A stretch of 64,000 nt of DNA, taken from contig NC_081333.1 of the NCBI RefSeq assembly GCF_022539665.2, positions 6,198,971 to 6,262,970 on the forward strand, in the 5' to 3' direction. The notes under the pieces were generated by a model. It had not been told where the DNA came from. It made no database searches and was given only the letters and a program-made list of their open reading frames with translations. Positions 36,077 to 63,941 of this stretch are shown here, piece by piece. The position numbers and the translations under genes were made by a program. The first letter of the stretch is position 1; each line of letters starts with the position of its first letter. This DNA comes from Daphnia carinata (taxonomy: Eukaryota; Arthropoda; Branchiopoda; Diplostraca; Daphniidae).

Positions 36077-36672
36077 CCAGAAAGAAATTGTAAGCAGTGC
36101 CGTTGCTAATATTCGCCAAAGCCATAAGCAAGGGGATAATCCAAAGTCGGATAAAGATGAGATTAAGGAGGTTATTCACGAACTCACACAGGCTGTAAGA
36201 CAACTCCAGCAAGATAGGAAAGATTATTCTTCTGCTACACCAGGAACTCCTTATAGGAAACAAGTTTCATTTCAATCGATTAACCCTGATCAAGGCAGGA
36301 ACTGGAGGCCTCCCCAGCAACGCCCCAATGATAATTATAATAATAACAATTATAATCTTAATCCTTACCAACACCAACCTCCTCGATTTCCAAACAGACA
36401 AACGCAAGCTGCGCCCCCTTTCTCAAGGCCACCTAACAATAATAATAGTGACAGGTCAGATCAGCTGATAATAACTTGTAAATTTTGTGGTTACCGCGGT
36501 CACACTCAGTTCAACTGTCGTCAATTTCCAGCGTCACAATCTGGAACAAGCCCAGCCTCCAGTCTGCTACTCCTGCCGAGAAATTGGGCATAAGTCTAAT
36601 AATTGTCCGAAATATAGGAATTCACAAAGACCTAATATTCCAGGGCCCCCTCAACATCAGGGAAACCAGTAA
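36066..36672 (+). pseudogene. Element A gag nucleocapsid, two frames
   Basis: Gag continues in a new frame at 36066-36593 (helical, then Asn/Pro/Gln-rich, then zinc knuckle CKFCGYRGHTQFNC). After another frame change, 36487-36672 carries knuckle CYSCREIGHKSNNC. Both are perfect CX2CX4HX4C motifs that bind RNA. Two consecutive single-base frame changes, at about 36070 and 36540, separate capsid from knuckle 1 and knuckle 1 from knuckle 2. These look like indels in this copy rather than programmed events. Confidence 0.7.
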
Positions 36673-39600: not shown

Positions 39601-40706
39601 ATCAAAAGTTAACAACTGCTTACAATCCAGCTAGCAATGGCGAAACTGAGAGATTTAATCGAACATTGACCACAATGTTGAGAAAGGAATTAAAAGATGG
39701 AGAACATGAGAATTGGGAAGATATGCTGGATGATGTTTTATTTGCTTACCGTAGTTCTGTCCATTCTTCGACATGTGAAACCCCATATTATTTACTGCAC
39801 GGTAGAGATCCTAATATACCTATTAATGAATTCCTTGACGCTTCCCCAAAAACATTTATCTCCGCATCAGATTACGTAGGTAATTTAGCTGATCGCTTAC
39901 GTTATAGTTTCCAACGCGTCCGTGAGGAGAGCGAAAAAGCAAGAAAACGTCAGAGGGAACAATATAATAAAAGAGCAAATGTAAAACAATATGTGGTAGG
40001 AGATAGAGTATTATTAGATATTAGAGTAGTCAAAGAAGGCGATAGTAGGAAATTTACCTCTAAATATAAAGGTCCTTATAGAATTGTAAAAGTATATTCC
40101 AATAATACAGTAGATATTGCTGATAATTCATACATTTGTCAACGCACTCATGTTAACCGCCTAAAACCCCTGTACGAAACAATGTTATGGAAAGACGAAC
40201 ATTGTCCCCCTATCGAGACGCCTTCGAAGTTCGAGAATCGATTTCGTAAATCGATTTCCACCCAAACAATCGAAACTATGGAAAACATAGAGCGAAACGC
40301 GAGTGAATGGGAAAATATGGAATTGGAACCTTTGGAAACAGTAAATGTGGGTACGGAAAGAAATGTTGAAAGTATGGATGCGGAAAGTGTGGAATTGGAA
40401 ACTGTGGAATTGGAGGCAGCGGAATTGCAAATGGCCGCCACCCAAAACAATAAACATTCTCATATCGTCAGCGAAACCCAAGGAATATATACTTCAGACG
40501 ATAATGAGTCAACTCATGTTGGTGCGTCCAATAAAACAAAGAACACCACAACAATTCACGGAAACAACGCAGCTGCGGTGATTAATCTTGAATCTGACGC
40601 CCGACAGGTGGCGCCTGCCATCAGTCAGCAAGAAATACTGCCACCCCAACATGCTACCGGACGCCCGCAAAGAAATCGAAAACTACCAATGCGTTATAGG
40701 AATTAG
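36618..40706 (+). CDS. Element A Pol: protease, RT, RNase H, integrase
   Basis: Open from 36618; the first ATG is at 36849, but the protease active site ALFDTGASKS (DTG at 36813) lies before it, so entry is probably by -1 frameshift from gag, whose last frame overlaps by 55 nt. Domains: protease (DTG, DCILGWDA), RT (RFCVDYRKLN, LDLASGYWQI, catalytic YLDD at 38070-38081), RNase H (FTDACDYGIGAVL, TEKEALAVVDAI, HRPLQWL), integrase zinc finger (H...H...CQACEVC), core (MDFLGPI, DRGTNFTS, NGETERFNRT) and a GPY/F-type tail (YKGPYRIVK). A repetitive acidic C-terminal tail (ELETVELEAAELQ) follows. All catalytic motifs look intact. It would process Gag-Pol, copy the RNA and integrate the DNA. Confidence 0.95.
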
Positions 40707-44377: not shown

Positions 44378-45983
44378 ATGTCGCTGATTCCATTCGTACT
44401 GTTGCTATGTCTTTACGGGCTACACCCGCAGGCATTTCAAACAACCGTATGCGATTTTCTTAAAGACGGGAATACTCCAATTTTCCGACGACAATTGCCA
44501 AGCGATTGCGCCCGATAATAAGGCCGTGAAAGTGAAATATGCGATTTATAGTGAAGACCGTGCCGCGGCTAAATTTCCTGGATATATTTGCGCAAGATGG
44601 AAGAATATACGGCGCATAACAATGAATTTTTTCGGTCAACTTGATTGTGCTAAAATTTCGATTGACCCAATGAAATGATTAACCAAAAACGATGTGACGA
44701 AAATCGAATGATTTTTTCAGACGATAAATTTATATTTGATCGTGAACCTGACATTTTCGGATATTGGCTACAGACAATTGATTCTGAAATTATAAACTCA
44801 GAAAGTGAACACGAAGACGCCGATTTTACAACACCAATCGGAACAGCTTCCGCCACGACTGGAAATTTATCACACAATCACTCATTAATTTGGGACAAAA
44901 CCTATACACAAAAGACTAAACCGATCTAGTGGAAGATCGGACGAAATAATTTTCAGGCTCCAAGATGACGCCAGACAACTTGATTTTCATTTGACTCCTA
45001 CAACACGCTCCTCCCTACAAAACGAATGCACCAATAGAACTTCGTCATTCGAGATCATCGGCCAATCGAAACTAACCGTTTCGGCGGCGGCCATCATGGA
45101 AAATTTACCAACCACTTTGGAGACTCCGGCGCCATCTACCGATGAAAATTTAAACGTACCCGCGAATATACAATATATTCGAGACCAACTTACTGATCAT
45201 GAAAATGAATTAGCAAGACAAATTCGACTAATGCAATGTGAAGCTCGCAAGGCCAAACACGAAAGGGCCGTTACAATGGCTCAATATAACGGATGGTTAG
45301 CAGCTTCGCAGTTAAATTTACAACAATGCACGAAATTACAAGCCTTTGGAAAAACAGTTGTATTAATTCAATGTAAAACTTTAAATGTTACATTTGAGAC
45401 TATACTGACATCTTGCGGACCACAGCCGAAATTTCAAAATTACACCATTAATCTCGACGGATGGGAACTTGTTAAATATTCCCCTTGTTATTGGACTAAC
45501 GGTTTCGTTAATTTTAACGACAAACCTTACGCCTTCCGTAACGACACATGGAAACCAATCGAAGCAAACATTGTGTTACCGGAACAAACACTTGCACATT
45601 CTTTTCGGTATGAAAATGTCGAATTTCTCGACTACGACCATCGAAGCAACCCGGCATATACCGACAATATGCTAAATCATATGAACATTATGGCCGATAT
45701 AGCCGCCGCGATTAATGAACATCCTGCACCTGAATTTGCCTTGCACCACAAATACAGTGCGTCGACCGTCTTAATGACATCAGCCAGTGTCGGAACTTAT
45801 ACATCTTGGTGGGACACCATCACGAATTATTTCTTCATCGGCATTTTATGTCTTTTGGTGCTTATCTTCTTGCGCATTTGCTATGCCTGCGGTCTTTTTA
45901 CCCTCATCTGGGCCGTCTGCTGTCGCCCTTCCGATGATCCAAGACCTGCGGCTCCCGAATCGATTCCGATGCATCAACTCTGA
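44378..45983 (+). pseudogene. Element A envelope-like gene, damaged by deletions
   Basis: Same gene as the intact env at 51098-52795. The signal-peptide region is present at 44378, but at least seven short deletions lie between about 44455 and 45015, several removing a Cys codon. After 44991 the frame is open to 45983 (330 codons) and includes the helical region, the Cys-rich C-terminal ectodomain and the transmembrane segment (FFIGILCLLVLIFLRI). The surface half is thus non-functional as written. The concentration of deletions in one 560-bp stretch is odd, and assembly or consensus error is possible. Confidence 0.8.
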
Positions 45984-46016
45984 TTACGGGACGTAATCTC
46001 ACGCCGCCGGGAGTGA

Positions 46017-46059
46017 TGTAACGAAGCCGAATATATCTTACTTTAACTTTTCTCGCTTT
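46017..46059 (+). repeat. Element A 3' LTR, first 43 bp before the gap
   Basis: TGTAACGAAGCCGAATATAT and the following bases match the 5' LTR start at 33125 with one difference, then run into Ns. It begins 34 bp after the env stop codon. Confidence 0.85.
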
Positions 46060-46159
46060 NNNNNNNNNNNNNNNNNNNNNNNNNNNNNNNNNNNNNNNNN
46101 NNNNNNNNNNNNNNNNNNNNNNNNNNNNNNNNNNNNNNNNNNNNNNNNNNNNNNNNNNN
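46060..46159. other. Assembly gap (100 N)
   Basis: Exactly 100 Ns, the usual placeholder for a gap of unknown size. The missing part would include the rest of the A 3' LTR and, if A' is a full element, its LTR, leader, gag and most of pol. Confidence 0.95.
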
Positions 46160-47416
46160 GCGTTAAAAGATCAAACAGCGCAGACGACAGCAGATTGTGT
46201 ATATAAAACAATTATAGTTAGACATGGTATGCCTAAAGCCATCCTTTCCGATCGTGGAACTAATTTCACGTCCAAATTATTCCGTTACTTCTGTAAGAAA
46301 TTAAAAATTGATCAAAAGTTAACAACTGCTTACAATCCAGCTAGCAATGGCGAAACTGAGAGATTTAATCGAACATTGACCACAATGTTGAGAAAGGAAT
46401 TAAAAGATGGAGAACATGAGAATTGGGAAGATATGCTGGATGATGTTTTATTTGCTTACCGTAGTTCTGTCCATTCTTCGACATGTGAAACCCCATATTA
46501 TTTACTGCACGGTAGAGATCCTAATATACCTATTAATGAATTCCTTGACGCGTCCCCAAAAACATTTATCTCCGCATCAGATTACGTAGGTAATTTAGCT
46601 GATCGCTTACGTTATAGTTTCCAACGCGTCCGTGAGGAGAGCGAAAAAGCAAGAAAACGTCAGAGGGAACAATATAATAAAAGAGCAAATGTAAAACAAT
46701 ATGTGGTAGGAGATAGAGTATTATTAGATATTAGAGTAGTCAAAGAAGGCGATAGTAGGAAATTTACCTCTAAATATAAAGGTCCTTATAGAATCGTAAA
46801 AGTATATTCCAATAATACAGTAGATATTGCTGATAATTCATACATTTGTCAACGCACTCATGTTAACCGCCTAAAACCCCTGTACGAAACAATGTTATGG
46901 AAAGACGAACATTGTCCCCCTATCGAGACGCCTTCGAAGTTCGAGAATCGATTTCGTAAATCGATTTCCACCCAAACAATCGAAACTATGGAAAACATAG
47001 AGCGAAGCGCGAGTGAATGGGAAAATATGGAATTGGAACCTTTGGAAACAGTAAATGTGGGTACGGAAAGAAATGTTGAAAGTATGGATGCGGAAAGTGT
47101 GGAATTGGAAACTGTGGAATTGGAGGCAGCGGAATTGCAAATGGCCGCCACCCAAAACAATAAACATTCTCATATCGTCAGCGAAACCCAAGGAATATAT
47201 ACTTCAGACGATAATGAGTCAACTCATGTTGGTGCGTCCAATAAAACAAAGAACACCACAACAATTCACGGAAACAACGCAGCTGCGGTGATTAATCTTG
47301 AATCTGACGCCCGACAGGTGGCGCCTGCCATCAGTCAGCAAGAAATACTGCCACCCCAACATGCTACCGGACGCCCGCAAAGAAATCGAAAACTACCAAT
47401 GCGTTATAGGAATTAG
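46160..47416 (+). CDS. Element A' Pol, C-terminal part (integrase)
   Basis: Open from the gap; the displayed Met is at 46229. It contains the second integrase catalytic Asp (SDRGTNFTS), the Glu motif (NGETERFNRT), the GPY/F-like tail and the acidic repetitive C-terminus. It is almost identical to element A Pol (a few substitutions, for example Asn to Ser in the tail). The missing N-terminal part lies in the gap. Confidence 0.9.
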   Translation, partial: ALKDQTAQTTADCVYKTIIVRHGMPKAILSDRGTNFTSKLFRYFCKKLKIDQKLTTAYNPASNGETERFNRTLTTMLRKELKDGEHENWEDMLDDVLFAYRSSVHSSTCETPYYLLHGRDPNIPINEFLDASPKTFISASDYVGNLADRLRYSFQRVREESEKARKRQREQYNKRANVKQYVVGDRVLLDIRVVKEGDSRKFTSKYKGPYRIVKVYSNNTVDIADNSYICQRTHVNRLKPLYETMLWKDEHCPPIETPSKFENRFRKSISTQTIETMENIERSASEWENMELEPLETVNVGTERNVESMDAESVELETVELEAAELQMAATQNNKHSHIVSETQGIYTSDDNESTHVGASNKTKNTTTIHGNNAAAVINLESDARQVAPAISQQEILPPQHATGRPQRNRKLPMRYRN

Positions 47417-50533: not shown

Positions 50534-51097
50534 TCTGTGTTACGCCTTACGTTGAGCTTAGGAAAAATGCACCCTCCAAGCCCACCAAGCGCGCCCTTTT
50601 TCTCTTCCCTTGCTCGTGTTTCACTTGCCTTTTACCCTATCCGTATGCGCCTTTGTGTCACTCTAATGAAAATTGACCTGTGTTTTTCCCCGTCGTTACA
50701 ATTATATCATGCCTTTTCTTCCTCTCCTGTCTAAACGATGCATTGTTTCCCGAATTTTTCTTTTGCATCAGTGAGATTATTCTTTCTCCTTCCCAATGAC
50801 ACCAGTCACCGCATAAAAATACTTACTCTTATATTAGATACATAATGTTTTTCCGTGCACTATATGCGTATTTTTGCTCGCTAGCGACCATCGGCAACTG
50901 TTTACGGGCCGACGGAAGATCGTTGACCTTTTTAATTGCCGTCATATATACTTCCTGCTTTTGCTTTTATTTTACCTTCTTTATATATTACTCATATAGT
51001 TTTAGGAAACCCACATGATGTTGTATTATGCTTTTATCTATACCTTCCACTGTTGATGTTGATTGTAATGTTTATTATATGTTGCCCTCTATAGAAA

Positions 51098-52795
51098 ATG
51101 TCGCTGATTCCATTCGTACTGTTGCTATGTCTTTACGGGCTACACCCGCAGGCATTTCAAACAACCGTATGCGATTGTTCCGAACCATTAAAGACGGGAA
51201 TACTCCAATTTTCCGACGACAATTGCCAAGCGATTGCGCCCGATAATAAGGCCGTGAAAGTGAAATATGCGATTTATAGTGAAGACCGTGCCGCGGCTAA
51301 ATTTCCTGGATATATTTGCGCAAGATGGAAGAATATACGGCGCATAACAATGAATTTTTTCGGTCAACTAGTGATTGTGCCGGATAAAATTTCGATTGAC
51401 ACTTCACCCGCCGTGTGCAATGAAATGATTAACCAAAAACGATGTGACGAAAATCGAATGATTTTTTCAGACGATAAATTTATATTTGATCGTGAACCTG
51501 ACATTTTCGGATATTGGCTACAGACAATTGATTCTGAAATTATAAACTGTGTTTTGGAGAAAGTGCAACTTTTTCAACTACACGAAGACGCCGATTTTAC
51601 AACACCAATCGGAACAGCTTCCGCCACGACTGGAAATTTATCACACAATCACTTAACATTAATTTGGGACAAAACCTATACACAAAAGACTAAACCGAAA
51701 ACCCGACTAGTGGAAGATGGGATAGGTACACTGGTTCGTCTACCGGGCGACGAAATAATTTTCAGGCTCCAAGATGACGCCAGACAACTTGATTTTCATT
51801 TGACTCCTACAACACGCTGTGCCTCCCTACAAAACGAATGCACCAATAGAACTTCGTCATTCGAGATCATCGGCCAATCGAAACTAACCGTTTCGGCGGC
51901 GGCCATCATGGAAAATTTACCAACCACTTTGGAGACTCCGGCGCCATCTACCGATGAAAATTTAAACGTACCCGCGAATATACAATATATTCGAGACCAA
52001 CTTACTGATCATGAAAATGAATTAGCAAGACAAATTCGACTAATGCAATGTGAAGCTCGCAAGGCCAAACACGAAAGGGCCGTTACAATGGCTCAATATA
52101 ACGGATGGTTAGCAGCTTCGCAGTTAAATTTACAACAATGCACGAAATTACAAGCCTTTGGAAAAACGGTTGTATTAATTCAATGTAAAACTTTAAATGT
52201 TACATTTGAGACTATACTGACATCTTGCGGACCACAGCCGAAATTTCAAAATTACACCATTAATCTCGACGGATGGGAACTTGTTAAATATTCCCCTTGT
52301 TATTGGACTAACGGTTTCGTTAATTTTAACGACAAACCTTACGCCTTCCGTAACGACACATGGAAACCAATCGAAGCAAACATTGTGTTACCGGAACAAA
52401 CACTTGCACATTCTTTTCGGTATGAAAATGTCGAATTTCTCGACTACGACCATCGAAGCAACCCGGCATATACCGACAATATGCTAAATCATATGAACAT
52501 TATGGCCGATATAGCCGCCGCGATTAATGAACATCCTGCACCTGAATTTGCCTTGCACCACAAATACAGTGCGTCGACCGTCTTAATGACATCAGCCAGT
52601 GTCGGAACTTATACATCTTGGTGGGACACCATCACGAATTATTTCTTCATCGGCATTTTATGTCTTTTGGTGCTTATCTTCTTGCGCATTTGCTATGCCT
52701 GCGGTCTTTTTACCCTCATCTGGGCCGTCTGCTGTCGCCCTTCCGATGATCCAAGACCTGCGGCTCCCGAATCGATTCCGATGCATCAACTCTGA
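51098..52795 (+). CDS. Element A' envelope-like glycoprotein (intact)
   Basis: 565 codons from ATG 51098. A signal peptide (FVLLLCLYGLH) is followed by a Cys-containing ectodomain; a central helical stretch rich in Glu/Gln/Arg from about residue 290; a C-terminal Cys-rich module (ILTSCGPQP, SPCYWTNGFVNFNDK); a transmembrane segment near the end (FFIGILCLLVLIFLRI); and a short cytoplasmic tail. Several NxS/T sites fit glycosylation. The role is presumably membrane fusion or cell-to-cell spread, as for other retroelement envelopes. It shares N- and C-terminal regions with element B env but lacks B's middle repeats. No furin-type site is obvious. The fold class is not certain; a class III glycoprotein is one possibility. 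Confidence 0.8.
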   Translation: MSLIPFVLLLCLYGLHPQAFQTTVCDCSEPLKTGILQFSDDNCQAIAPDNKAVKVKYAIYSEDRAAAKFPGYICARWKNIRRITMNFFGQLVIVPDKISIDTSPAVCNEMINQKRCDENRMIFSDDKFIFDREPDIFGYWLQTIDSEIINCVLEKVQLFQLHEDADFTTPIGTASATTGNLSHNHLTLIWDKTYTQKTKPKTRLVEDGIGTLVRLPGDEIIFRLQDDARQLDFHLTPTTRCASLQNECTNRTSSFEIIGQSKLTVSAAAIMENLPTTLETPAPSTDENLNVPANIQYIRDQLTDHENELARQIRLMQCEARKAKHERAVTMAQYNGWLAASQLNLQQCTKLQAFGKTVVLIQCKTLNVTFETILTSCGPQPKFQNYTINLDGWELVKYSPCYWTNGFVNFNDKPYAFRNDTWKPIEANIVLPEQTLAHSFRYENVEFLDYDHRSNPAYTDNMLNHMNIMADIAAAINEHPAPEFALHHKYSASTVLMTSASVGTYTSWWDTITNYFFIGILCLLVLIFLRICYACGLFTLIWAVCCRPSDDPRPAAPESIPMHQL

Positions 52796-52878: not shown

Positions 52879-53288
52879 TTAACTTGTAAATGACTTTCAA
52901 CTCGGCTTACTAATTACTAAGTGTATTTTCACAAGACTAACAAGACTAATCACAGGTGTAATGTAAGATTCTCTAAAACTCTACTACACTTCAACGCTCT
53001 GGACACAGACACACAATGTACTATAACGCACTAAACTCAGACCCCGAGCCCCCTTCTTGTCACAGCTTTTATCAGTTAATATGAGGTCACTCTTGACGTC
53101 AATGATCACGTGAAGACGAACTGATCGTAGAGGTGAAGAGCTGACTGATACTGGTTTGGCGTGGGAAGGCTCCGTGAGGATGAAGAACTGTTTGATACCA
53201 GTTCGCCGTGGAATCATCCAAGGCTGGAATCTATTAATTAGCTAAGCTAACTAATTGGTGGCGTTCTTCGGTATATGTCCTCATCACA
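52879..53288 (-). repeat. Element B 3' LTR
   Basis: Matches 63532-63941 base for base as far as I can tell. The outer end lacks about 8 bp (TGTAATGT) present in the other LTR. On the minus strand the LTR starts TGTGATGAGGAC. Open frames inside both LTRs (52984-53217) are by-products. Confidence 0.9.
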
Positions 53289-53302: not shown

Positions 53303-53502
53303 ACAGAAGTTGCCTTTGGGGTTACAGGGTTGGAGAATATATTTATGTATACGGAAGTTATAATGAAACAGATAGGTCTACCAAAATTTCTAATTCTAAT
53401 TTATGCATTTGCTTCTTTTCTTTCTTTCTTCCGTAGGGATTACAATTGCTAAACATTTCTTGTTAGTAAGAGAGTGGAATAGTGGAGGGGATAGGTAAGG
53501 AT

Positions 53503-53504
<2 letters not shown>

Positions 53505-53561
<57 letters not shown>
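53505..53561. repeat. Homopolymer tract (57 T)
   Basis: 57 consecutive Ts on the plus strand, that is, poly-A in the sense of element B. With the 43-T tract at 54211-54253 it brackets the opposite-strand ORF. Length is likely to vary. Confidence 0.9.
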
Positions 53562-53562
<1 letters not shown>

Positions 53563-53639
53563 ATGCGAACCTTATAGTTGTTGCTTTTTGTTCCGGTGTG
53601 TTTCATTCGTTTCTTGCCCTTCGTCGAGCTCCCTTGTGC

Positions 53640-54174
53640 ATGATGGAGTTTGATTTTACATGCGTTGTGTCTCATCGTGCTGCCGTTGATACTGCTTTGT
53701 GGATTTTCGAAGTTATAGCGTATCACAAGCCTCATTTGCTCTTCCGAAGATTTCTTCCCACTGATCGAGAACTGTTCTTCAATTCCTATCGGCCATCGAT
53801 GAGTGTTGAAAATTGTCCTCCTCTTGACTTCGGGTTCCGACGAGTCAGTTCCACCGACCGCTATTATGTGTAAGTCGCAAATTGGTTCTTTTCTTAGCAT
53901 TCCATTTGACTTGTTTTTTTTTTCTTTTTCCAGTCAGTTTCCAGGTTATGCTCGCTACCGCGACATTTACCCGGTCCGGTTTGCACGATTGCTCTGGTGG
54001 CTCGAGTCTGGTGAGGATATCTATCACCGCAACTGTCGTTCATCGCTCTTCTTCAATGAACAATTGCAGGAAGAATTCCATCACTCAGTGGCAATGCAGA
54101 ACGTACACCGTCTTCTCCGTCGGCTTTTGATTGGCACCGATCTTATGCTGGTTAGTTCCTTGTATTTCCAGTAG
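53640..54174 (+). CDS. Two-exon ORF on the opposite strand of element B, unknown
   Basis: Exon 1 is open from upstream of ATG 53640 (MMEFDFTC) to 53869. A 64-bp intron follows (53870 GTAAGT to TTTTTCCAG at 53933) with a strong pyrimidine tract. Exon 2 (53934-54174) continues in phase, giving about 156 codons ending SSLYFQ. The sequence is aromatic- and Arg-rich (YARYRDIYPVRFARLLWWLE); no signal peptide or known domain is recognised. It lies between env and the polypurine tract and is transcribed against the element. It could be captured host DNA or an antisense accessory gene. The match of phase, donor and acceptor makes chance unlikely, but expression is unproven. Confidence 0.55.
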
Positions 54175-54208
54175 AATACACAACTTTAAAGGTTGGTTGT
54201 CTATGGAC

Positions 54209-54210
<2 letters not shown>

Positions 54211-54253
<43 letters not shown>
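54211..54253. repeat. Homopolymer tract (43 T)
   Basis: 43 consecutive Ts at the right border of the opposite-strand ORF region. In element B sense this is poly-A about 110 bp after the env stop codon. Confidence 0.9.
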
Positions 54254-54363: not shown

Positions 54364-56325
54364 TCATTTTTGGGGTGCAATGAGGCATCCGTCATTCCAA
54401 CAGAGTCCCTTACCCGGAATGATTTGTGTATCATTATGGATATGTGACAGCATGGGAATTTCTTGCTCGTGATTGTTAGTGTTATTTTTCTTTTTACACA
54501 AATTGAAGATTGTAGCAAATGGTATAAATGCAATGCAGACATATCCAATCAAGATTGTTACAGCTATTACACTCACTGCTAGTATTCCATACTTAAATAT
54601 GGAAACCCAATTGGATATATCCCAGAAATCAACCTGGGCCTTGTTATCTAAGACTAATCCAGAAAGTGAATTAGTATTAGATAGTTGTACTCTACCAATT
54701 AATTCCGTTAAAACATTTAATTGTTCTACGTTATTTGGCTCATACATCGAATGATGCTGAGGCAAATAATCGTACGTTTTTAGAGGTAATTCCTCAAATG
54801 CTGTAATCAATTTTAGTTTTACCACATGAATTGATGGTTCTTGGAGTTTCCATTCTCCATTTATCCATGTATAGGTTTTATCGTTGAAATTTACATATTG
54901 ACCGTTCCAGAAACAATCCTGGAAAGGATGAAGTGACCAACCATCCTTTCCAACAGTGAAATTGGTTTTCGGGTCTGCCTGAAAAAATGGCTGATAGCCG
55001 CACTGTGTTTGTACAGCGGCCATTTTTACAGGTACAATTTCACATTTCTGTAAAATTAAACTTTTGCCGTTTCCGGTTATTCTACTACATGTATCTAGAT
55101 TTAGTGCACGGGCTGCAAGCAGTCCATTTGTTTGTGCTAAAACCATAGCTTGATTACGCTGTAGTGAAGTAATTTTGCAATATAATTGACGGACTTCGTT
55201 GGCCAATTGTGATTCGTGTTTGATCGCCTGCCCTTCAATGTACTGGCGATTTTCAATGTCTAGCAACGTCCTAACGCTATCTGTTAATTGAGTTTTTGTC
55301 TCGTTGCCTTTGGTGTTCAAAACTTCACCAGAATCATTTAGTTCAATTAACCTTTCTTGTCTTCTTTTGTTTCTCTCTTCCCTTCTATTCGAAATGGTAG
55401 TCACCTCTTCTATTCTGTCCATTGGAAAAAATGGGGTTGCAAGGGTTCTTTGGAAAATCCATTCTTGCAACTTTTGTGAGGAATCGCAGGGAAGTGCTCG
55501 CACCGTCTTGTCTTCGTAAAATGGAACTAGACAAAATGGATTGTCCTTTAAGGCAAATTGCCTGTCAATCTCATTGTAGTTCCATAACATTCTATTACTA
55601 AATTCACTGTCGCATGACTGCGCCGTCATCGGCGTAACACAAGTGTTGGTTGTGAGAATTCTTAGTTTCCCATTTACGTAGCCGAAATCCTGTTTAGGGT
55701 AACCTTCGATAGAGCTACTTTGGTTACAAAACAGTAACGTGAGAGTCTGTTGTTCCGATATAGTTAGACAGTAATCCAAATTGGTGGTGGGCTGAATTTT
55801 ACCGTATAAAGTTGGTGGATTAAACGGTATGTGGTCACTCATTTTGTCGAACTTGCGTGTGCGATTCCTATCCCATCTAGTTACTTGTGGCCCTCTTTGT
55901 TCTTGTAATTCCCCATCTATTGCCTCATTGGATGATTCTAGAATTTCTAGTAACCATATTTGGTTCACGTTACCATTCTCACACGGTGTAACAGTTACAG
56001 GATAATCCAGTGTTATGTTTACGGTTAAGCAATTACCTGTGTGAGCTTGAATCATATGGAAAGGAACTAATCCAAATGTCATCGGGTTGGGTTCTAATGA
56101 CCATACATCCGTCGGGTTATTTAGTTCATCTAAACTACTACCGCATTTCTTGACTCCCGTGTTGTTTTCTGTAAATTGGTGAATGCAATGCTCGAGATAG
56201 CTTTGCATTACCATTCCATTAGCAAGAAATTTGAAAGCTTGACCGTTGGTTATCACCTTCTGCGTTTCTTTTTCAATTTGACAGGGTGGTGTCGAATGCA
56301 CAAGTTGGGGTCGAGAATTTTCCAC
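54364..56325 (-). CDS. Element B envelope-like protein, C-terminal frame with ricin-type repeats
   Basis: 653-codon frame. Residues ~30-295 contain five repeats with spaced Cys pairs and Trp, of the ricin B (beta-trefoil) kind: W at VWSLE (~75), QIW (122-124), a weaker repeat ~174-205, MLW (247-248), QEW (287-289). A basic dibasic stretch (~314-322, RNKRR) separates them from a helical region (~340-410), a Cys-rich module (TQCGYQPFF, DCFWNGQYVNFNDK) and a transmembrane segment (~575-605). From ~340 on it is homologous to element A env. It overlaps ORF 57214-56273 by 53 nt in another frame, so the first repeat lies in that ORF. Beta-trefoils commonly bind sugars; here a receptor-binding role is a guess. 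Confidence 0.75.
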   Translation of the reverse strand: MENSRPQLVHSTPPCQIEKETQKVITNGQAFKFLANGMVMQSYLEHCIHQFTENNTGVKKCGSSLDELNNPTDVWSLEPNPMTFGLVPFHMIQAHTGNCLTVNITLDYPVTVTPCENGNVNQIWLLEILESSNEAIDGELQEQRGPQVTRWDRNRTRKFDKMSDHIPFNPPTLYGKIQPTTNLDYCLTISEQQTLTLLFCNQSSSIEGYPKQDFGYVNGKLRILTTNTCVTPMTAQSCDSEFSNRMLWNYNEIDRQFALKDNPFCLVPFYEDKTVRALPCDSSQKLQEWIFQRTLATPFFPMDRIEEVTTISNRREERNKRRQERLIELNDSGEVLNTKGNETKTQLTDSVRTLLDIENRQYIEGQAIKHESQLANEVRQLYCKITSLQRNQAMVLAQTNGLLAARALNLDTCSRITGNGKSLILQKCEIVPVKMAAVQTQCGYQPFFQADPKTNFTVGKDGWSLHPFQDCFWNGQYVNFNDKTYTWINGEWKLQEPSIHVVKLKLITAFEELPLKTYDYLPQHHSMYEPNNVEQLNVLTELIGRVQLSNTNSLSGLVLDNKAQVDFWDISNWVSIFKYGILAVSVIAVTILIGYVCIAFIPFATIFNLCKKKNNTNNHEQEIPMLSHIHNDTQIIPGKGLCWNDGCLIAPQK

Positions 56326-57214
56326 TGCGTGGCATGTACGCCAAACAACGACTAGGATCGCTAGCTAACATTAATAATCCTATCACTTCTCTATCATAGC
56401 TTCTTTTCTGTCGCTTAGGGGTTTCTATAATATCTATGTAGGAATCGGGTAACCCGATTACCGGATAGACGGTTATGTTCGTGCAGATTTGCGTTTTGTT
56501 AGCAGATATGATAAATTCTAACTGAGCTGCATGATCTTCTATCCTATTTTGTTTCTTACTTTTCGTTAAGTTACCTCTACCTTGAAATACCGAATTTATT
56601 TCACAGGTGGGCTCTTTTGCATCTGGTGCTTTCCAAACGATCGTTAGTTCATTATGATTCGAAAATTCTGCCTTACTAGAATTCGCTATTATACCAAACG
56701 GTGACTTTACTGGGCAATCGTGACAATCCTTTGATAACTGAACTATTTGAGTTACACAATTCTTAGTTGTGTAGACCTGTGTTGTCATCCAGTGACCTTC
56801 TCCCTCAGGCTCCTGGAGGTATTTAAATGTTTTTCCGTCCTTTACCATCGGGCTATTCACGCATGTATTTGGATACTGTGCCGTGTTCCAGCATTCATTA
56901 GCACTAACTTTTAAAATTTGCTTCTTAAAAATAGTGTCATGACTTAAAAGGAAATTAGTGGATATTTCTTTGGTTGATAACCACTGGGTGCATGCGTACC
57001 CTTCCCATGTTATGGGTTCTTTGTTTTTGGTTAGGAATCGGTAATTGATTTTAGTTGGAATTTCTACTGGTTCAGGGTGTGAACAGTAGTCGGGATCGTC
57101 TAAATCTAAAATACCTTTAATTACTGGTTGTGAGCAGTTGCAGGTGTCGATGGTTATTGAGTGGGTTATTCCTACAGCTATAATGAAGACGATAGTTGCA
57201 ATAACGTTCCTCAT
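56273..57214 (-). CDS. Element B envelope-like protein, N-terminal frame
   Basis: 313 codons from 57214. A signal peptide (VIATIVFIIAVGITHS) is followed by a Cys-rich ectodomain that parallels element A env (CNCSQPVIKGIL vs CDCSEPLKTGIL; GYACTQW vs GYICARW; AQLEFIIS vs RQLDFHLT). A furin-like site RQKR lies at residues ~268-271. After it comes the first ricin-type repeat (SRCLAY ... TCAF). The frame then ends and env continues at 56325 in another frame. Whether the change is a mutation, an error or programmed shifting cannot be told here. The ATG lies only 7 nt below the integrase stop at 57221, so env follows pol almost without spacing. Confidence 0.75.
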   Translation of the reverse strand: MRNVIATIVFIIAVGITHSITIDTCNCSQPVIKGILDLDDPDYCSHPEPVEIPTKINYRFLTKNKEPITWEGYACTQWLSTKEISTNFLLSHDTIFKKQILKVSANECWNTAQYPNTCVNSPMVKDGKTFKYLQEPEGEGHWMTTQVYTTKNCVTQIVQLSKDCHDCPVKSPFGIIANSSKAEFSNHNELTIVWKAPDAKEPTCEINSVFQGRGNLTKSKKQNRIEDHAAQLEFIISANKTQICTNITVYPVIGLPDSYIDIIETPKRQKRSYDREVIGLLMLASDPSRCLAYMPRSGKFSTPTCAFDTTLSN

Positions 57215-57220
57215 CTGTAA

Positions 57221-58390
57221 TTACATTTCCGTAATGAGTCTTTGTGGCTGTTTGATTGCTTGTCTTAGCGATCTTCTAACAGGTATTCCGATATCATCCT
57301 GCCTTTTCCGTCTCACTCTAGGTTGCTTAATTTGTGCTTTACCGCTTTCGGTCGGTAACTGTGCTGTTTCTTGCCGATTGCTATCTTCCCCTTCTGTTGC
57401 TTGTCTTACAGCGGTTGCTGCTGTCTCTCCTTGACATTGGATACTCAATTCCCTTTCCCTACTTTCAATTTCTATCTCACTCTGTGTTTCTCTTTCTTCG
57501 TTTTCTGATTCCCTCCTAGGGTTACGTTCTACGCTGTTACCTTCTTCCCTTTCTTTAGTTACGTTTTCCGCGTCTTCCTTGCTTTTCCATTTCTTGAGGC
57601 GATTCACATGCACAACCATAGTATGGTTTTCTGTTGTTCTCCTGATTAGGTAATTCAAATCAGACAACTTATCTACGATAGTGAAAGGTCCATCCCAACG
57701 CATATAAAATTTACCTGTTTGTGGCTTCATTTCTTTCAATAGCACTAAGTCTCCTGGCTCAAACGAGCATTCCTTCGATGAACGATCGTAATTCACCTTT
57801 TGTCTTGACTGTGCTACGATTAGCTTACTTTTGGCTAATTCTAAAGCTTCGTGCCATTGTTGCGTATAAATGTTGTTTTGATCCTCTAGAAGCCTATTTC
57901 TCATCGGGGGTCTTAAGTCCGATGGTTCTAATGCATCTCTGCCTTTTAATAGGTAAAAAGGGGTTTCACCGGTGCTCGAGTGAGGCGTCCGGTTGTAAGC
58001 CGCGACTACATAGTCGAGGTGCTCATCCCACAAGGCAGGGTTATGAGCGACATGGGCTGTTAACATGTCCCCTAATGTCCTATTAAATCTCTCAACAGCA
58101 CCATCTGTTTGCGGGTGGTATGCTGTAGTTCTTAACTGTTTCACACCTAGCTGTTTACACAATTCAGCCATTGCTTGCGATTGGAAGTTCGAACCTCGAT
58201 CCGTTAGGATCTGCGAGGGTAACCCTTCGTTGTTTACAATGTGCTTAATAAACTTGCGAATGATAGTCTGGGCGGAAACTTCCTTAAGCGCAAGTGCTAT
58301 AATATATCTCGTTGTGTACTCCATGATTACTAAGATATATTTATTTCCTTTCTCACTTTCTGGAACTGGGCCTACAATATCCATGGCCAA
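57221..58390 (-). CDS. Element B integrase
   Basis: 389-codon frame. Core: MDIVGPVPES (first Asp), TDRGSNFQSQ (second Asp), DGAVERFNRT (Glu) and the spacing typical of D,D(35)E integrases; then GDLVLLKE, RWDGPFTIVDKL (GPF-type motif of the GPY/F module) and VHVNRLKKW. The charged C-terminal extension is Arg/Glu-rich. The HHCC zinc finger lies in the preceding frame (58372-60234), so a frame break near 58450 separates finger from core. Inserts element cDNA into host DNA. Confidence 0.9.
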   Translation of the reverse strand: MAMDIVGPVPESEKGNKYILVIMEYTTRYIIALALKEVSAQTIIRKFIKHIVNNEGLPSQILTDRGSNFQSQAMAELCKQLGVKQLRTTAYHPQTDGAVERFNRTLGDMLTAHVAHNPALWDEHLDYVVAAYNRTPHSSTGETPFYLLKGRDALEPSDLRPPMRNRLLEDQNNIYTQQWHEALELAKSKLIVAQSRQKVNYDRSSKECSFEPGDLVLLKEMKPQTGKFYMRWDGPFTIVDKLSDLNYLIRRTTENHTMVVHVNRLKKWKSKEDAENVTKEREEGNSVERNPRRESENEERETQSEIEIESRERELSIQCQGETAATAVRQATEGEDSNRQETAQLPTESGKAQIKQPRVRRKRQDDIGIPVRRSLRQAIKQPQRLITEM

Positions 58391-60234
58391 TCGTTGCCAG
58401 ACGTAGTCTGTAACAGGGATTGGTTGGAGTGCAGCTTTACAAGATCCAGAAATTTTCTTTTCGCACAGGTTAAGCAGTTAAGTACGTGAGTTTTTATATC
58501 GTTAGCCATCTTTGGCCAAAAGTATTTATTACTAATGTTTGCGGTCGTTTTTGTTATTCCTAGGTGACCAGCCAATTTGTGGTCGTGATATTGCTCCATA
58601 ACCTCTTTTCGTAGCGTCGCCGGTACTACGATTTTTCCCCTAGCTGTGGTTAAAAGTCCGCTAGGTAAATATCGAAATTCGTCTTCTGCATCCTTGTTTG
58701 CCTTCTCTAAGTTTTTTACTACTTCTTTGCAAAAGGTATCTTCTTGCTGAGCAATTAGCCAGTCGTCAGCTACGACTTGCTGTGATACTACAATATTAAC
58801 CGGTATTCTGCTCAATGCGTCAGCATTTTGGTGCAGTTTACCAGGCCTATACTGAATTTCCATCTCAAATTGTTGCAAGAATAAGAACCATCTGGCCAAT
58901 CTTCCTGTTGGCTCCCTGACTTTTTGGATGTATTGCAGAGGCCTATGGTCGGTCACTATTACAAAGTTAGTGCCGTATAGGTAATGGAAAAATGCTTTTA
59001 CTGAGTGAATAATCGCATACGCTTCCTTCTCTGTGGTACACCATTTTAGTTGAACATCAGTTAGATGCTTAGAGGTGTATGCAATAGGGTGTTCTAGAGA
59101 CTTATTCCATTCGTCTGTCGACTCTTCTATTACTCTTGAATCATTTATTGATTCCTCACTGGGCCCTGGGTTGGCATTTGGATGGGGCATCTGAGAGAGG
59201 ATTCCGCCTACTCCATACCCGCACGCATCCGTGTGTAAGATGAAAGGGCGCGCGAAATCAGGATATGCGAGGGTAGGGGCGGAACATAAACATTCCTTGA
59301 TGCCTTCAAAAGCGCTTGTTTCCTCCTGCCCCCATTGCCATGGTACTGTGCTCCTCGTGAGCCGTGTTAGTACATGGACTTTGTTGGCGAACTGATCTAT
59401 GAACCGTCTATAGTAATTTGCGAGTCCTAGGAATGCTCTGACTTGGTCCGGGTTTTTTGGTGCCGGATACTTTTTTACCACTTTTATCTTGTTTGGGTCT
59501 ACCATGACTCCTTTTTGTGACACTATGTGCCCAAGATATTCTACCGCGTTAGCTGCAAATTTGCACTTTTGAATTTTGACTTTAAGTCCATTTGCTTGTA
59601 AAAGGCGAAACGTCGAGGTCAGATGCTGTACGTGTTTGGCCATGCTGGTGCTGTATACAATGATGTCATCAATATATACCATTACGCACTTGCCAATTAA
59701 CGTTCGAAGAACAATTTCCATTGTCCTCTGGAACGTGCTCGGCGCGTTGCATAGACCAAACGGCATCCTTATATACTCAAAGTGTCCCATTTCTGCTGTA
59801 AATGCGGTTTTATGAATATCTTCCTCAGCTATCTCGATTTGCCAGTACCCACTGAACAAATCGAGTGTTGAGAAAAATTTCGCTCCGTGTAGCAAGTTCA
59901 ATGTATCGTCTATTCGTGGTAGAGGATACCGATCCTTGACTGTCACTGCGTTTAAGTCCCTATAGTCTACGCAAAATCGTAGTTCTCCTGATTTCTTCTT
60001 TACCATCACTATTGATGCCCTAAAAGCGCTATGGCTTTCTCGGATGATGTTGTATTTCAACATTTCTTCGATTTGCTGCTTAGCTATCGGTTTAATAGCT
60101 GCTGGCATTCTATAGGTTCCTCTCATTTTTGGGTTTCCCGTAGTTACTATCTTATGCTTGAGTACATTTGTTCGTCCTAGTTCTATCAACTGGGATGCGA
60201 AAACTGATTTGTGGTTATGTAATACTTGCTCCAT
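58372..60234 (-). CDS. Element B reverse transcriptase and RNase H
   Basis: 620 codons from Met at 60234; the open frame extends a little further upstream. RT motifs: LRFCVDYRDLN, FSTLDLFSGYWQIE, FGLCNAPSTFQR, catalytic YIDDIIVYS (about 59665), YLGHIVSQKG. RNase H: LHTDACGYGVGGIL, TEKEAYAIIHSV, VTDHRPL and NADALSRIP. The end contains the integrase zinc finger (HLGITKT, CLTCAKR). All catalytic residues look present. The RT frame is +1 relative to protease (60299-60796) and follows it directly, so a shift at ~60300 is needed for a joined Pol. Confidence 0.95.
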   Translation of the reverse strand: MEQVLHNHKSVFASQLIELGRTNVLKHKIVTTGNPKMRGTYRMPAAIKPIAKQQIEEMLKYNIIRESHSAFRASIVMVKKKSGELRFCVDYRDLNAVTVKDRYPLPRIDDTLNLLHGAKFFSTLDLFSGYWQIEIAEEDIHKTAFTAEMGHFEYIRMPFGLCNAPSTFQRTMEIVLRTLIGKCVMVYIDDIIVYSTSMAKHVQHLTSTFRLLQANGLKVKIQKCKFAANAVEYLGHIVSQKGVMVDPNKIKVVKKYPAPKNPDQVRAFLGLANYYRRFIDQFANKVHVLTRLTRSTVPWQWGQEETSAFEGIKECLCSAPTLAYPDFARPFILHTDACGYGVGGILSQMPHPNANPGPSEESINDSRVIEESTDEWNKSLEHPIAYTSKHLTDVQLKWCTTEKEAYAIIHSVKAFFHYLYGTNFVIVTDHRPLQYIQKVREPTGRLARWFLFLQQFEMEIQYRPGKLHQNADALSRIPVNIVVSQQVVADDWLIAQQEDTFCKEVVKNLEKANKDAEDEFRYLPSGLLTTARGKIVVPATLRKEVMEQYHDHKLAGHLGITKTTANISNKYFWPKMANDIKTHVLNCLTCAKRKFLDLVKLHSNQSLLQTTSGNDWPWIL

Positions 60235-60298
60235 TTCTAGTCTGTCTTTCCCTTTCAGGTGTGACAGTTCAAAGGTTACTGTTTGGCTTTCCTTAATG

Positions 60299-60796
60299 CT
60301 ATATATAGGTATTTATTTTCTTAAGGCTAATTACAGATTCTACTCCGTTTACTGATAATGTTAGTGTTTTATTAGCTATATCTAATTTTGTTTTGTACTT
60401 TTTGAAGAAATCTAGTCCTAAAATACATCCTTCTTGTGTTTCAGGCAACACGAAGAAGTCATGCTCTAGTCTGCAATTTGGTGTTAATTTAAGACTTAAT
60501 TTGAAACATCCCAATGGGTGCATGATGTTTCCTGACGCAGATTCAAACGACTGACTAGGTTTAGTTTCTAATTCAGTTACGATCGCTTTATGAGGTAATA
60601 AGGCAAATCTCTCAGATGAAATAATACTAGCTGCTGCACCTGTGTCGATTAAAGCTTGTGCTTTCTGATTACTAAATTCCACGGGTATCCTAATTAATCT
60701 ACATGTTTGTTTAATCTTTCCTATTCTGTTTTTGATTGGAACCTTCTCGGATTTTTGGTCCGACAATCTTTCGCTATATGTCCTGTGTTGAGACAT
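60299..60796 (-). CDS. Element B protease
   Basis: 165 codons. Retropepsin motifs ALIDTGAAASII and GCILGLDFF. The frame is -1 relative to gag and overlaps its 3' end by 76 nt (60721-60796), the usual arrangement for -1 ribosomal frameshifting. CAAAAAT at about 60752-60758 (minus strand) is the best slippage candidate I see, although not a canonical heptamer. It cleaves the Gag-Pol polyprotein. Confidence 0.9.
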   Translation of the reverse strand: MSQHRTYSERLSDQKSEKVPIKNRIGKIKQTCRLIRIPVEFSNQKAQALIDTGAAASIISSERFALLPHKAIVTELETKPSQSFESASGNIMHPLGCFKLSLKLTPNCRLEHDFFVLPETQEGCILGLDFFKKYKTKLDIANKTLTLSVNGVESVISLKKINTYI

Positions 60797-63375
60797 CTAT
60801 GACAAGTAATAGTGTTTTCTCTGTTATTACCACTTAATCTTTGTTTTCTCGCTAGCTCTGCCGATGGGTGAGGGCTCTTGGATCTTGGACGCTCGTCGTA
60901 ACGCCTTGTCCGAGAATCGAGTCTCTCCCTATTCTGATACCTCTTGTCCTGGTATCGTTCTTTACCGTATGACCGTTCACGCGACTCGGACCGGTTCCTG
61001 TCGTACGATCTGTTACGGTTGTAAGAGTGATCTCTACGGTCTCTACTATACGAATTATCCCTAGATCGCTGTCGATCTTCCCATTTAACGTTATTATATC
61101 TTGACGAATCCCTACCTTGCTTATAGGTGTCAATATTGTTTACGGACCAATCTTGTCCCGATTTCGACGCTGTACCTGACAGATTTAATTTCGTTAGGTT
61201 GTTTTTTAACTCTTCTAATTCCAGTTTTGTTTGAGTTAATTCAGCTTCTATATCTCTAGTCGGTTTCGGTACTTCAAATTTGAATATCGGTTTTAGTTCT
61301 AGTGCCTGTGTGTTGTAGGCGATTTCTTCTGACTCTAACGCTGCTTGTTTGAAATTTTGCCAGTTTGGGGTGCTAGGGTATTTATTATGGAATAGAATTG
61401 TCTTGATGGTTGGCAGCAATCCATCTAGTAACATTTTGATTAGTGTATCATCTTTAAGAGCTGTTAGTTCAGCGCTTTCTGCTTGTTCCTCATCGCCTTC
61501 CTTGTAAATCGCACTATATGCCTGTGTTATTTTATCAATAAAATGTCTAACGGGTTGGTTAGGTGATTGTTTTACTGACAGTAGTTTCGATTTCTGTTTG
61601 GCTTTATCCGCGGGATGTTTGAAATGTTCCTTTAATGCATTCCGCCAATCGCTATACGATTCTCTCGGTGCTACCCGTAGTCTATCGATATGCCATTGCA
61701 ATGCTGTCCCCTTTAACCTTGTGGCTAAAATCTTTTTGGTGGATTCCCTCGGCCATTCGTGAATCGTTGCTATTGCCTCCGCATCTCTTAACCATACTCC
61801 TATCGGTTGGTCGTTCACATTGCCACTATAAATAGGAATGTTCTGTGTTTCGTCTCTACGTGTAATGGCTACTGCTAATGCTCGTATATCATCGTTTGCT
61901 GTCATTCTTGGTGTTTCGTTAGTTGTATCGGTTTCGATAGCCGGTTGTGCTAGTTGTTCTAAGAGTGTCAGGTTGTTTTTATTTAGTTGTTCTATGCTTC
62001 CTTTAAGATAATTGTTTTCGGTATCTAGTTTAGCTGCTCGCTCCGCTGCCTGTTTCGCTAACTGGAGTGCTTGTCCTAGTTCCGTTAATTCGTTTTCCAA
62101 TGACACGATTTTCCTATTCTGTATGGCCAGGGTGTGTTGTGCTATCTCCAACTCGTTTGTGCTTGCGGCACTCGCGATTGTTTGTTGTAGCCTTTTAAAC
62201 TTTTCTTCTAACGACTGATTAGCCGTTTGTAACGTTGATATTTCTATTGTTTGCTTAGTTTGCTTATCGTGTAAGGTTGTTTCGTTAATCTGGCTAATGT
62301 TCAAATTGTGCTTAAGTTGATTGTTTTCTGTTTGTAGGTTAACAATTTTGCTTGTCTGGTCAATTTGTTCCTGTCTTAGAAATTCCAACTCTGCCTGTTT
62401 GGTTTGTATTGTATCGTTTAGATGCGAAATTTCCTGATTCTTATCTGTTATATGTACTATTAATTTCTTATGTTCTACCTGTAATGCGTGAATTTCTTTT
62501 TCCTGATCAATGCTTTTTGTTTCAAGAGCTTTGTAACTTAATTGTAGTTTCTCGAATTCTATTTGGATGTTACTGTATTTATTCAATAAGGTTGTTCCTT
62601 CTCCAAGTAGTTGGCTTTCCCTTTCTTTCAATTTCTCTAATTCCTGTTGAAGCTTTTTCTTGTCCTTAATTAACTTGGTTTTAACTGATGTGTGTTCGGT
62701 TTCTACTTTTCTTATGGTTGATTCTAAGATTTGAACGTCCTGGGTCTTTTTTACTAGGGTGGTTATTAGGTTGGTTTTTTCTCCTTGCGTTTGCTCTAAC
62801 TGTTGGGTTAAGCTGGTTGCTTGATATTCGATGCTTTGTTGCTGGATAGTAGCTGTCTGTAGTAAGGCTAAACCTTGATTTTCAAGATCTTGTATTTTTG
62901 TTTCAGCCGCGATTAGTTTTTCCGAAATTAATTTATACTCTAAGTCTTTATCTTTTAGGCGTGTTTTTAGCTGTTTGGTTGTTGCTTTATCTTTAGCTGC
63001 TTCTAGTTCTAATTTATACTGATTAATTGTTTGATGAATCTCTATTAGTGCAGTTTTTAGAATATCCCTCTCCTCTACTAGCTTATTTCTCTTTTTACTG
63101 GGTAGATTCTCTGTAGAATGATATTTCGTTAATTGTTTCTCCTCGTCGCTGTCCCTTGGGCTACTTTCAGCGCTTCTAGTTCTTTTTTGAAAAGGTACAA
63201 TACGAACTTCTGCTATTTCACTCTTCTGCTCGTTTTCTAAACTGGGATATACTTTTTGGGTTGTACGCTTAGTATCTACTACGCTTCGTCTTGTAGGACG
63301 ATCTTTTACTTCTACAGTTTCTTCTACTGGGGCTGACGGCTTGTATATATCTATTGCTAAGTTGTCAGATGACAT
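60721..63375 (-). CDS. Element B Gag with very long N-terminal coiled coil
   Basis: 884 codons from 63375. Residues ~1-95 polar and charged. Residues ~98-480 form an almost uninterrupted coiled coil (heptads rich in Leu, Gln, Glu, Lys; for example KLQQELEKLKERESQLL). Residues ~515-690 are a Ty3-type capsid (IPIYSGN, GVWLRDAEAIA, LKGTALQWHIDRL, VRHFIDKITQAYSAI). Then come a short second coil, an Arg/Ser/Tyr-rich basic stretch (~755-850) and a CX2CX4HX4C zinc knuckle (CHRCLNTGHIAKDC). The typical Ty3/Gypsy Gag is 300-500 residues, so the coil roughly doubles it. Coils of this kind could space or multimerise the particle, as proposed for some long Gag proteins. Confidence 0.9.
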   Translation of the reverse strand: MSSDNLAIDIYKPSAPVEETVEVKDRPTRRSVVDTKRTTQKVYPSLENEQKSEIAEVRIVPFQKRTRSAESSPRDSDEEKQLTKYHSTENLPSKKRNKLVEERDILKTALIEIHQTINQYKLELEAAKDKATTKQLKTRLKDKDLEYKLISEKLIAAETKIQDLENQGLALLQTATIQQQSIEYQATSLTQQLEQTQGEKTNLITTLVKKTQDVQILESTIRKVETEHTSVKTKLIKDKKKLQQELEKLKERESQLLGEGTTLLNKYSNIQIEFEKLQLSYKALETKSIDQEKEIHALQVEHKKLIVHITDKNQEISHLNDTIQTKQAELEFLRQEQIDQTSKIVNLQTENNQLKHNLNISQINETTLHDKQTKQTIEISTLQTANQSLEEKFKRLQQTIASAASTNELEIAQHTLAIQNRKIVSLENELTELGQALQLAKQAAERAAKLDTENNYLKGSIEQLNKNNLTLLEQLAQPAIETDTTNETPRMTANDDIRALAVAITRRDETQNIPIYSGNVNDQPIGVWLRDAEAIATIHEWPRESTKKILATRLKGTALQWHIDRLRVAPRESYSDWRNALKEHFKHPADKAKQKSKLLSVKQSPNQPVRHFIDKITQAYSAIYKEGDEEQAESAELTALKDDTLIKMLLDGLLPTIKTILFHNKYPSTPNWQNFKQAALESEEIAYNTQALELKPIFKFEVPKPTRDIEAELTQTKLELEELKNNLTKLNLSGTASKSGQDWSVNNIDTYKQGRDSSRYNNVKWEDRQRSRDNSYSRDRRDHSYNRNRSYDRNRSESRERSYGKERYQDKRYQNRERLDSRTRRYDERPRSKSPHPSAELARKQRLSGNNRENTITCHRCLNTGHIAKDCRTKNPRRFQSKTE

Positions 63376-63523: not shown

Positions 63524-63941
63524 TGTAATGTTTAACTTGTAAATGACTTTCAACTCGGCTTACTAATTACTAAGTGTATTTTCACAAGACTAACAAGACT
63601 AATCACAGGTGTAATGTAAGATTCTCTAAAACTCTACTACACTTCAACGCTCTGGACACAGACACACAATGTACTATAACGCACTAAACTCAGACCCCGA
63701 GCCCCCTTCTTGTCACAGCTTTTATCAGTTAATATGAGGTCACTCTTGACGTCAATGATCACGTGAAGACGAACTGATCGTAGAGGTGAAGAGCTGACTG
63801 ATACTGGTTTGGCGTGGGAAGGCTCCGTGAGGATGAAGAACTGTTTGATACCAGTTCGCCGTGGAATCATCCAAGGCTGGAATCTATTAATTAGCTAAGC
63901 TAACTAATTGGTGGCGTTCTTCGGTATATGTCCTCATCACA
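63524..63941 (-). repeat. Element B 5' LTR
   Basis: 418 bp. On the minus strand it begins TGTGATGAGG and ends AACATTACA, giving short imperfect inverted ends (TGTGATG/CATTACA). It matches 52879-53288 without visible difference. Confidence 0.9.

Follow-up and report, generated by a model that had tools for sequence, protein, structure and literature searches.

What is the extra protein segment that separates the envelopes of two related retroelements in a single stretch of the Daphnia carinata genome? The window analysed here, by which we mean the whole stretch of 64,000 nucleotides (NCBI RefSeq assembly GCF_022539665.2, contig NC_081333.1, positions 6,198,971 to 6,262,970, read on the forward strand), carries envelope (Env) genes of one family in two elements, termed A and B. 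A sequence-only reading had proposed that Env of element B holds about 300 additional residues, forming six ricin-type (R-type) repeats in two β-trefoil domains that bind sugar and were newly acquired directly behind a furin-like site. Our analysis confirmed that this Env contains two ricin-type β-trefoils directly behind an RQKR motif, and suggests that they probably stand exposed in the cleavage loop of a viral-type fusogen and serve it as an attachment domain.

Env in the window copy of element B is broken into two minus-strand frames, 57220–56273 and 56364–54364, which overlap at 56273–56364 and were searched as separate pieces. The profile Ricin_B_lectin (PF00652) matched the downstream frame with 33.4 bits against a cut-off of 29 (E 5.9e-8), over three stretches of which the best spans residues 244–306, bearing out the ricin-type repeats. 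The trefoil-free Env of element A, a member of the same family (51095–52795, plus strand, 566 amino acids), gave no PF00652 match in the same Pfam scan (E up to 1). Six repeats are indeed present across Env, but the frame in which they had been placed (56325–54364) holds five of them, the first lying in the last part of the upstream frame, right after RQKR. The signature motifs QIW and QEW fall at residues 135–137 and 300–302 of the stop-to-stop frame 56364–54364, and at 122–124 and 287–289, as originally given, when counting begins at 56325; QAF and QDF are also found among the five repeats encoded here. By itself the QxW tally says little, as two or more such motifs arose in 988 of 20,000 shuffles of the first 325 residues, and it was the profile and fold results together that ruled out chance repeats. 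Searching the PDB by sequence with the downstream frame returned a single chance-level match, to Ginlfy protein (E 0.2).

Structure models were made for the window frame and for an intact relative, P0001, and both match solved R-type trefoils, which supports the proposed pair of β-trefoil folds. The counterpart of trefoil 1 in P0001 was modelled well, unlike trefoil 1 of the window. Top-ranked in the fold search with the P0001 trefoils were lectin domains of polypeptide N-acetylgalactosamine (GalNAc)-transferases, with rows lying within 1 Z unit of each other treated as tied. By sequence, the nearest solved chains to trefoil 2 were likewise GalNAc-transferases, the Drosophila enzyme first, in a weak match (E 2.8e-4); animal R-type trefoils in the PDB are often GalNAc-transferases. 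The cysteine-rich domain of the mannose receptor matched only weakly (E 0.22).

Read along the minus strand, the N-terminal part of the putative fusogen (56414–57214, upstream frame, 69% identical to P0001 and alone without a Pfam family) ends at the furin-like RQKR (56402–56413), so that the module stands directly behind this site as had been described. Repeat 1 opens trefoil 1 in the upstream frame (56276–56401) and corresponds by eye to P0001 residues ~275–312, modelled as the start of P0001 trefoil 1; repeats 2 and 3 complete it in the downstream frame (55942–56289, QIW at 55962), with block-mean predicted local distance difference test (pLDDT) values of 40–72 in the window's own model. 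Repeats 4–6 form trefoil 2 (55447–55821, QEW at 55467), and the linker after it bears a second basic site, RNKR (55363–55374). The C-terminal core (54604–55284), predicted to comprise the long helix and the next domain of the fusogen, is the best conserved region in the alignment with 14 relatives (model helix 362–412). It is followed by a probable transmembrane helix (54529–54603), a hydrophobic stretch modelled as helix 575–613 that may anchor the protein in the membrane.

A protein search recovered those 14 relatives, eight of which already carried automatic Pfam labels for the domain in the protein database, and all nine that were scanned matched Ricin_B_lectin, six above the cut-off and three below. 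By sequence, P0001, P0002, P0003, P0004 and P0010 have two trefoils and P0011, P0012 and P0013 have one, and the domain of the one-trefoil form is closest to trefoil 2 of the two-trefoil form (E 3.2e-15, versus 3.1e-12 for trefoil 1). Element A Env has 58 relatives, among them proteins under the species names Daphnia magna, D. sinensis and D. pulex, and forms with and without the insertion both exist. A third form occurs in the D. carinata genome at loci L031 and L033, whose open frames of 1297 and 1386 amino acids hold two trefoils (62.4 and 55.8 bits) followed by a threonine-rich, mucin-like stretch of 253 or 304 residues (29 or 35% Thr). Shared landmarks on either side of the junction are 52 residues apart in element A; the gap is 247–267 residues with one trefoil, 440 with two (P0001) and 764 in the mucin form. 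The insertion is larger than the roughly 300 residues first estimated.

The same genome holds many copies. The downstream frame has at least 68 matches there, further fragments included, and at least ten copies besides that of the window are 97–100% identical over nearly its whole length, at least five of them with a single open env frame of 951 amino acids. The diverged mucin branch occupies at least 14 places, at 37–40% identity and in open frames of 1286–1386 amino acids. No close copy of the one-trefoil branch was seen among at least 70 matches to P0012, all of 45% identity or less, and many of these coincide with places already listed for the other two branches. Ricin_B_lectin has 96 matches in the genome, and RicinB_lectin_2 (PF14200) has none; among 30 Ricin_B_lectin loci that were cut out, 24 also encode the env N-terminal part and the other six include lectin exons of cellular-looking genes. 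Loci L008 and L012 match GalNAc-transferases. Lectin exons of cellular appearance with three repeats were also noted at L001 and L006, the latter with a weak match to CEL-III (E 8.1e-4).

The backbone into which the trefoils are set is predicted to resemble class III fusogens of the herpesvirus gB and rhabdovirus G type. The P0001 model matched herpes gB with a Foldseek E of 3.3e-11, and rhabdovirus- and chuvirus-like G proteins were among its BFVD matches, a fold similarity that accompanies a sequence identity of 6–10% in the gB rows of the search; no lectin name appeared among the 50 BFVD matches listed. Element A Env matched the Monjiviricetes profile PF24664 at 14 bits, under the cut-off of 27. 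Of seven relatives scanned singly, five matched PF24664 under the cut-off, P0016 matched PF00974 above its cut-off (24.9 versus 22 bits) and P0054 matched neither. In trefoil-free Envs the PF24664 profile, of 653 positions, aligns across the junction (P0032, 148–376 to 177–396, and three similar cases). Whole-chain template modelling (TM) scores to gB are low, and the class III assignment therefore draws on Foldseek E-values, the profile matches of relatives and domain order.

We consider it probable that element B Env is a gB-like class III fusogen with two trefoils as an exposed attachment domain in its cleavage loop. In gB the furin loop lies ahead of the long helix, and the two trefoils would occupy the equivalent loop, after the N-terminal fusion half and ahead of the C-terminal half's long helix. 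On this reading an ancestral Env of the lineage would have acquired one trefoil, perhaps a GalNAc-transferase-like lectin domain of the host, which was then doubled; one branch would have added the mucin-like stretch. A protease would cut before the module, and the trefoils would form an exposed head whose binding to a ligand on the cell surface brings the fusogen to the target membrane. R-X-[KR]-R describes the first site of the window, of L040 and of P0001, P0002, P0004, P0010, P0011 and P0012. Behind the module, the two-trefoil branch has a second basic cluster, which follows R-X-[KR]-R in five cases (window, L040, P0004, P0007 and P0010), consists of mere basic runs in P0001, P0002 and P0003, and is absent from all three one-trefoil proteins (P0011, P0012 and P0013). 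In this branch the protease may therefore also cut after the module; if both sites were used, the lectin pair would be released as a separate chain.

Both trefoils are under purifying selection. Ratios of nonsynonymous to synonymous substitution (dN/dS) were obtained for seven segments from three pairs of open copies, two distant and one close. For trefoil 1 they were 0.08, 0.13 and 0.17; trefoil 2 gave 0.05 and 0.10 (third pair saturated), the C-terminal core 0.05 and 0.04 (third pair saturated), the N-terminal core 0.06 (two pairs saturated) and the linkers, where computable, 0.19–0.29. Amino-acid identity in the two distant comparisons was 0.61–0.70 for trefoil 1, 0.52–0.62 for the linkers and 0.81–0.84 for the C-terminal core. 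The dN/dS values indicate that the trefoils are kept as protein, with trefoil 1 and the linkers evolving faster than the core.

In canonical R-type repeats, the Asp that follows the first Cys–hydrophobic pair is the galactose-binding residue. We checked this one position per repeat, and among the 56 repeats with a recognisable first Cys in 12 env sequences Asp stands there once and Thr or Ser 37 times; in lectin-type exons from the D. carinata genome, Asp fills the position in four of five repeats, and in two of four more by eye. Classical galactose or GalNAc binding by the Env trefoils is not supported by these repeats, and neither is the sugar binding originally proposed, as far as its canonical mode is concerned. 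With the canonical residue replaced in nearly every repeat, there is no need for the ligand to be galactose; as a single residue was checked, other modes of glycan binding may apply.

The strongest alternative, which we place somewhat short of an even chance, is that the trefoils act as a structural spacer, a shield or a protein–protein interaction module that binds no sugar. The scarcity of the canonical Asp relative to host lectin exons speaks for it, as does the faster change of trefoil 1 and the linkers compared with the C-terminal core. β-Trefoils without sugar binding exist. Cocaprins, for example, are described in PMC9104457 as protease inhibitors with a β-trefoil fold, a precedent for such a role. 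On the other side stand the retained Cys pairs and QxW motifs, a fold near that of R-type lectins and the selection acting on the protein. Moreover, glycan binding also occurs in R-type trefoils with other residues in this role, the cysteine-rich domain of the mannose receptor among them.

The history of the module was approached through a tree of the env C-terminal core, with the trefoils excluded. The tree is unrooted and holds 60 of 88 extracted rows, after removal of 16 redundant genome copies (at least 80% identical to P0001) and 12 element A-type rows; a further 27 of 115 matched rows fell under 85% coverage and were not extracted. Rows were labelled by core similarity, and some of the trefoil-lineage rows (P0009 and P0014) are fragments in which no trefoil is visible. 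One branch with 100/100 support separates the 24 trefoil-lineage rows (17, 4 and 3) from 36 element A-type rows, so that the presence or absence of trefoils needs a single change. For 29 of the element A-type rows the sequence covers the junction, which measures 28–51 residues and is trefoil-free; the other seven of the 36 are too short there. Because the Monjiviricetes profile runs through the junction of trefoil-free relatives, trefoil gain appears likelier than loss, which makes the proposed domain acquisition likely, though not proven.

Within the trefoil lineage, the trefoils of the mucin branch do not pair one to one with those of element B: mucin-branch trefoil 2 matches element B trefoil 1 at E 5.2e-6, and mucin-branch trefoil 1 shows no clear preference among the three remaining trefoil groups (E 8.6e-7 to 1.8e-6). 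This pattern leaves room for separate gains or for a reshuffle in the mucin branch. Separate insertion of the two sets at one permissive loop would explain the weak inter-branch matches and landmark distances as far apart as 440 and 764 residues, but we regard it as rather unlikely, given that both sets lie at the same place behind the basic site and on a single branch of the core tree, and that mucin-branch trefoil 1 is equally near all three other groups. Still less probable is an ancestral presence of trefoils in the env family, followed by their loss in the line leading to element A. An unrooted tree accommodates one change in either direction, yet the Monjiviricetes profile spans the junction of trefoil-free Envs, implying a wider viral family without the insert, and the BFVD matches listed are equally free of lectin names. 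A chance likeness, an assembly error or a chimeric insert confined to a single copy, to which the broken frames of the window copy and the QxW shuffles might have lent some colour, is refuted by the independent near-identical and diverged copies, by relatives from other data sets that carried the domain in every case scanned, and by calibrated E-values.

As to the source of the trefoil, a host GalNAc-transferase-like lectin domain is possible from the similarities found: the nearness of trefoil 2 to GalNAc-transferases fits capture of a host lectin but is no proof of it, and no specific host donor was identified, the nearest-chain match to these enzymes being weak. A candidate viral source was sought by scanning the viral_contigs set of IMG/VR with the trefoil-env alignment, which gave 94 pattern matches and no confirmed relative.

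Several observations weigh against the picture of a gB-like fusogen with a trefoil attachment domain. The window's own Env model is weak overall (pLDDT 56.1) and poor in trefoil 1, and both env and pol are frame-broken in this copy. Against gB, the P0001 model reaches whole-chain TMq values of only 0.14–0.18 with root-mean-square deviations of 18–40 Å, and the window Env pieces matched neither of the fusion-family profiles PF24664 and PF00974. The first cleavage motif is loose in P0003 (KKKR) and P0013 (QQKR), the canonical galactose Asp is missing from 55 of the 56 Env repeats, the core tree lacks a root, and mucin-branch trefoil 2 matches element B trefoil 2 at an E of only 0.0079 (probability 5). 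Of the seven segments in the selection analysis, synonymous divergence is saturated in five for one distant pair and in three for the other, and the close pair offers just three or four amino-acid-changing differences per segment. A C-terminal Baculo_F match in the mucin-branch frame L036, under the cut-off (18.9 versus 24.1 bits), is also at odds with class III.

We retain the class III attachment reading nonetheless and extend it, tentatively, to a fuller history. A host-derived R-type lectin would have been inserted in the cleaved loop in the ancestor of the trefoil Env lineage and then duplicated, with a mucin-like stalk added in a second branch; the two basic sites of the two-trefoil branch would possibly yield a three-chain envelope with a separable lectin subunit. 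We hold this extended version possible but clearly less secure than the placement of an attachment domain in the loop.

Judged by its frames and repeats, the carrier is a young env-bearing Ty3/gypsy-type LTR (long terminal repeat) element on the minus strand, with LTRs, gag, reverse transcriptase, RNase H and integrase all present and env placed behind integrase. Its 5′ LTR (63532–63941) and 3′ LTR (52879–53288) are each 410 bp and 100% identical; no target-site duplication was seen by eye in their printed flanks. The gag frame (60721–63375, 884 amino acids) matches Retrotrans_gag (E 9.2e-7) and, under the cut-off, zf-CCHC (E 0.0023). Between gag and pol, an open frame of 165 amino acids with a DTGA motif (60299–60796) was assigned by eye as protease-like. 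The first pol frame (58372–60312) encodes reverse transcriptase (RVT_1, E 3.3e-36), RNase H (RT_RNaseH, E 1.3e-32) and an H2C2 zinc finger (Integrase_H2C2, E 2.2e-22), and the second (57221–58477) the integrase core (rve, E 6.4e-15) and C-terminal domain (Integrase_p58_C, E 4.2e-11). The pol split lies at 58372–58477 despite the identical LTRs, and sequencing error is a possible reason for two such breaks in a copy this young. Long A/T homopolymer runs lie between the env stop and the 3′ LTR, at 53500–54250. Elsewhere in the window, the plus strand carries what by eye is a partial second element A env (its C-terminal part, 44889–45983) and then a pol/integrase fragment (46022–47416) nearly identical to the end of frame 36636–40706, with a run of N within the region, suggesting that element A copies are nested or rearranged around 44889–47416. 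Several pol-like frames on the minus strand at 3706–7239 resemble, by eye, a BEL/Pao-type element.

Set beside known systems, element B Env shares with herpesvirus gB and rhabdovirus G the predicted fold of its halves, their order and a cleavage loop before the long helix, and differs in being borne by an LTR element and in that the loop is longer by some 390 residues, two trefoils included. Its trefoil-free relatives resemble the chuvirus-like Monjiviricetes family (PF24664, under the curated cut-off), which the trefoil-bearing Env of the window does not match. The trefoils are like the GalNAc-transferase lectin domain in sequence (trefoil 2) and fold (P0001), unlike it in lacking a transferase domain, in replacement of the binding Asp and in standing as a tandem inside an envelope of viral type. 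Tandem trefoils of ricin-type repeats also occur in ricin B chain, mistletoe lectin, HA33 and CEL-III; those of Env, in contrast, are embedded in a membrane-anchored fusogen, lack the canonical galactose residue and give no hint of a toxin. The gypsy env is a baculovirus F protein. Capture of env from unrelated viruses by LTR elements is described in PMC5962544 for Tas (perhaps from herpesviruses) and Cer (from a phlebovirus). These Metaviridae, gypsy included, resemble element B as LTR elements with an acquired viral fusogen and differ from it in that no lectin domain is mentioned for them, the word 'lectin' occurring 0 times in PMC5962544. The main texts of two papers on Daphnia pulex LTR retroelements (PMC6338049 and PMC2996953) contain neither 'envelope' nor 'lectin'. 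No report of R-type lectins inserted into retroelement or class III envelopes came up, among the titles and abstract openings listed, in searches of an open-licence library, which leaves most subscription journals outside its coverage. We know of no class III fusogen with a recognisable cellular-type lectin domain.

The graded series of no, one and two trefoils, and of two trefoils plus a mucin-like stretch, in related elements would make the origin of attachment domains directly testable. A separable lectin subunit, if true, would be a further way of coupling attachment to fusion besides the retroviral surface subunit and the separate receptor binders of herpesviruses. Identical LTRs and an env gene under selection suggest that these elements use Env now, which matters for the question of whether infectious retroviruses exist among arthropod Ty3-type elements.
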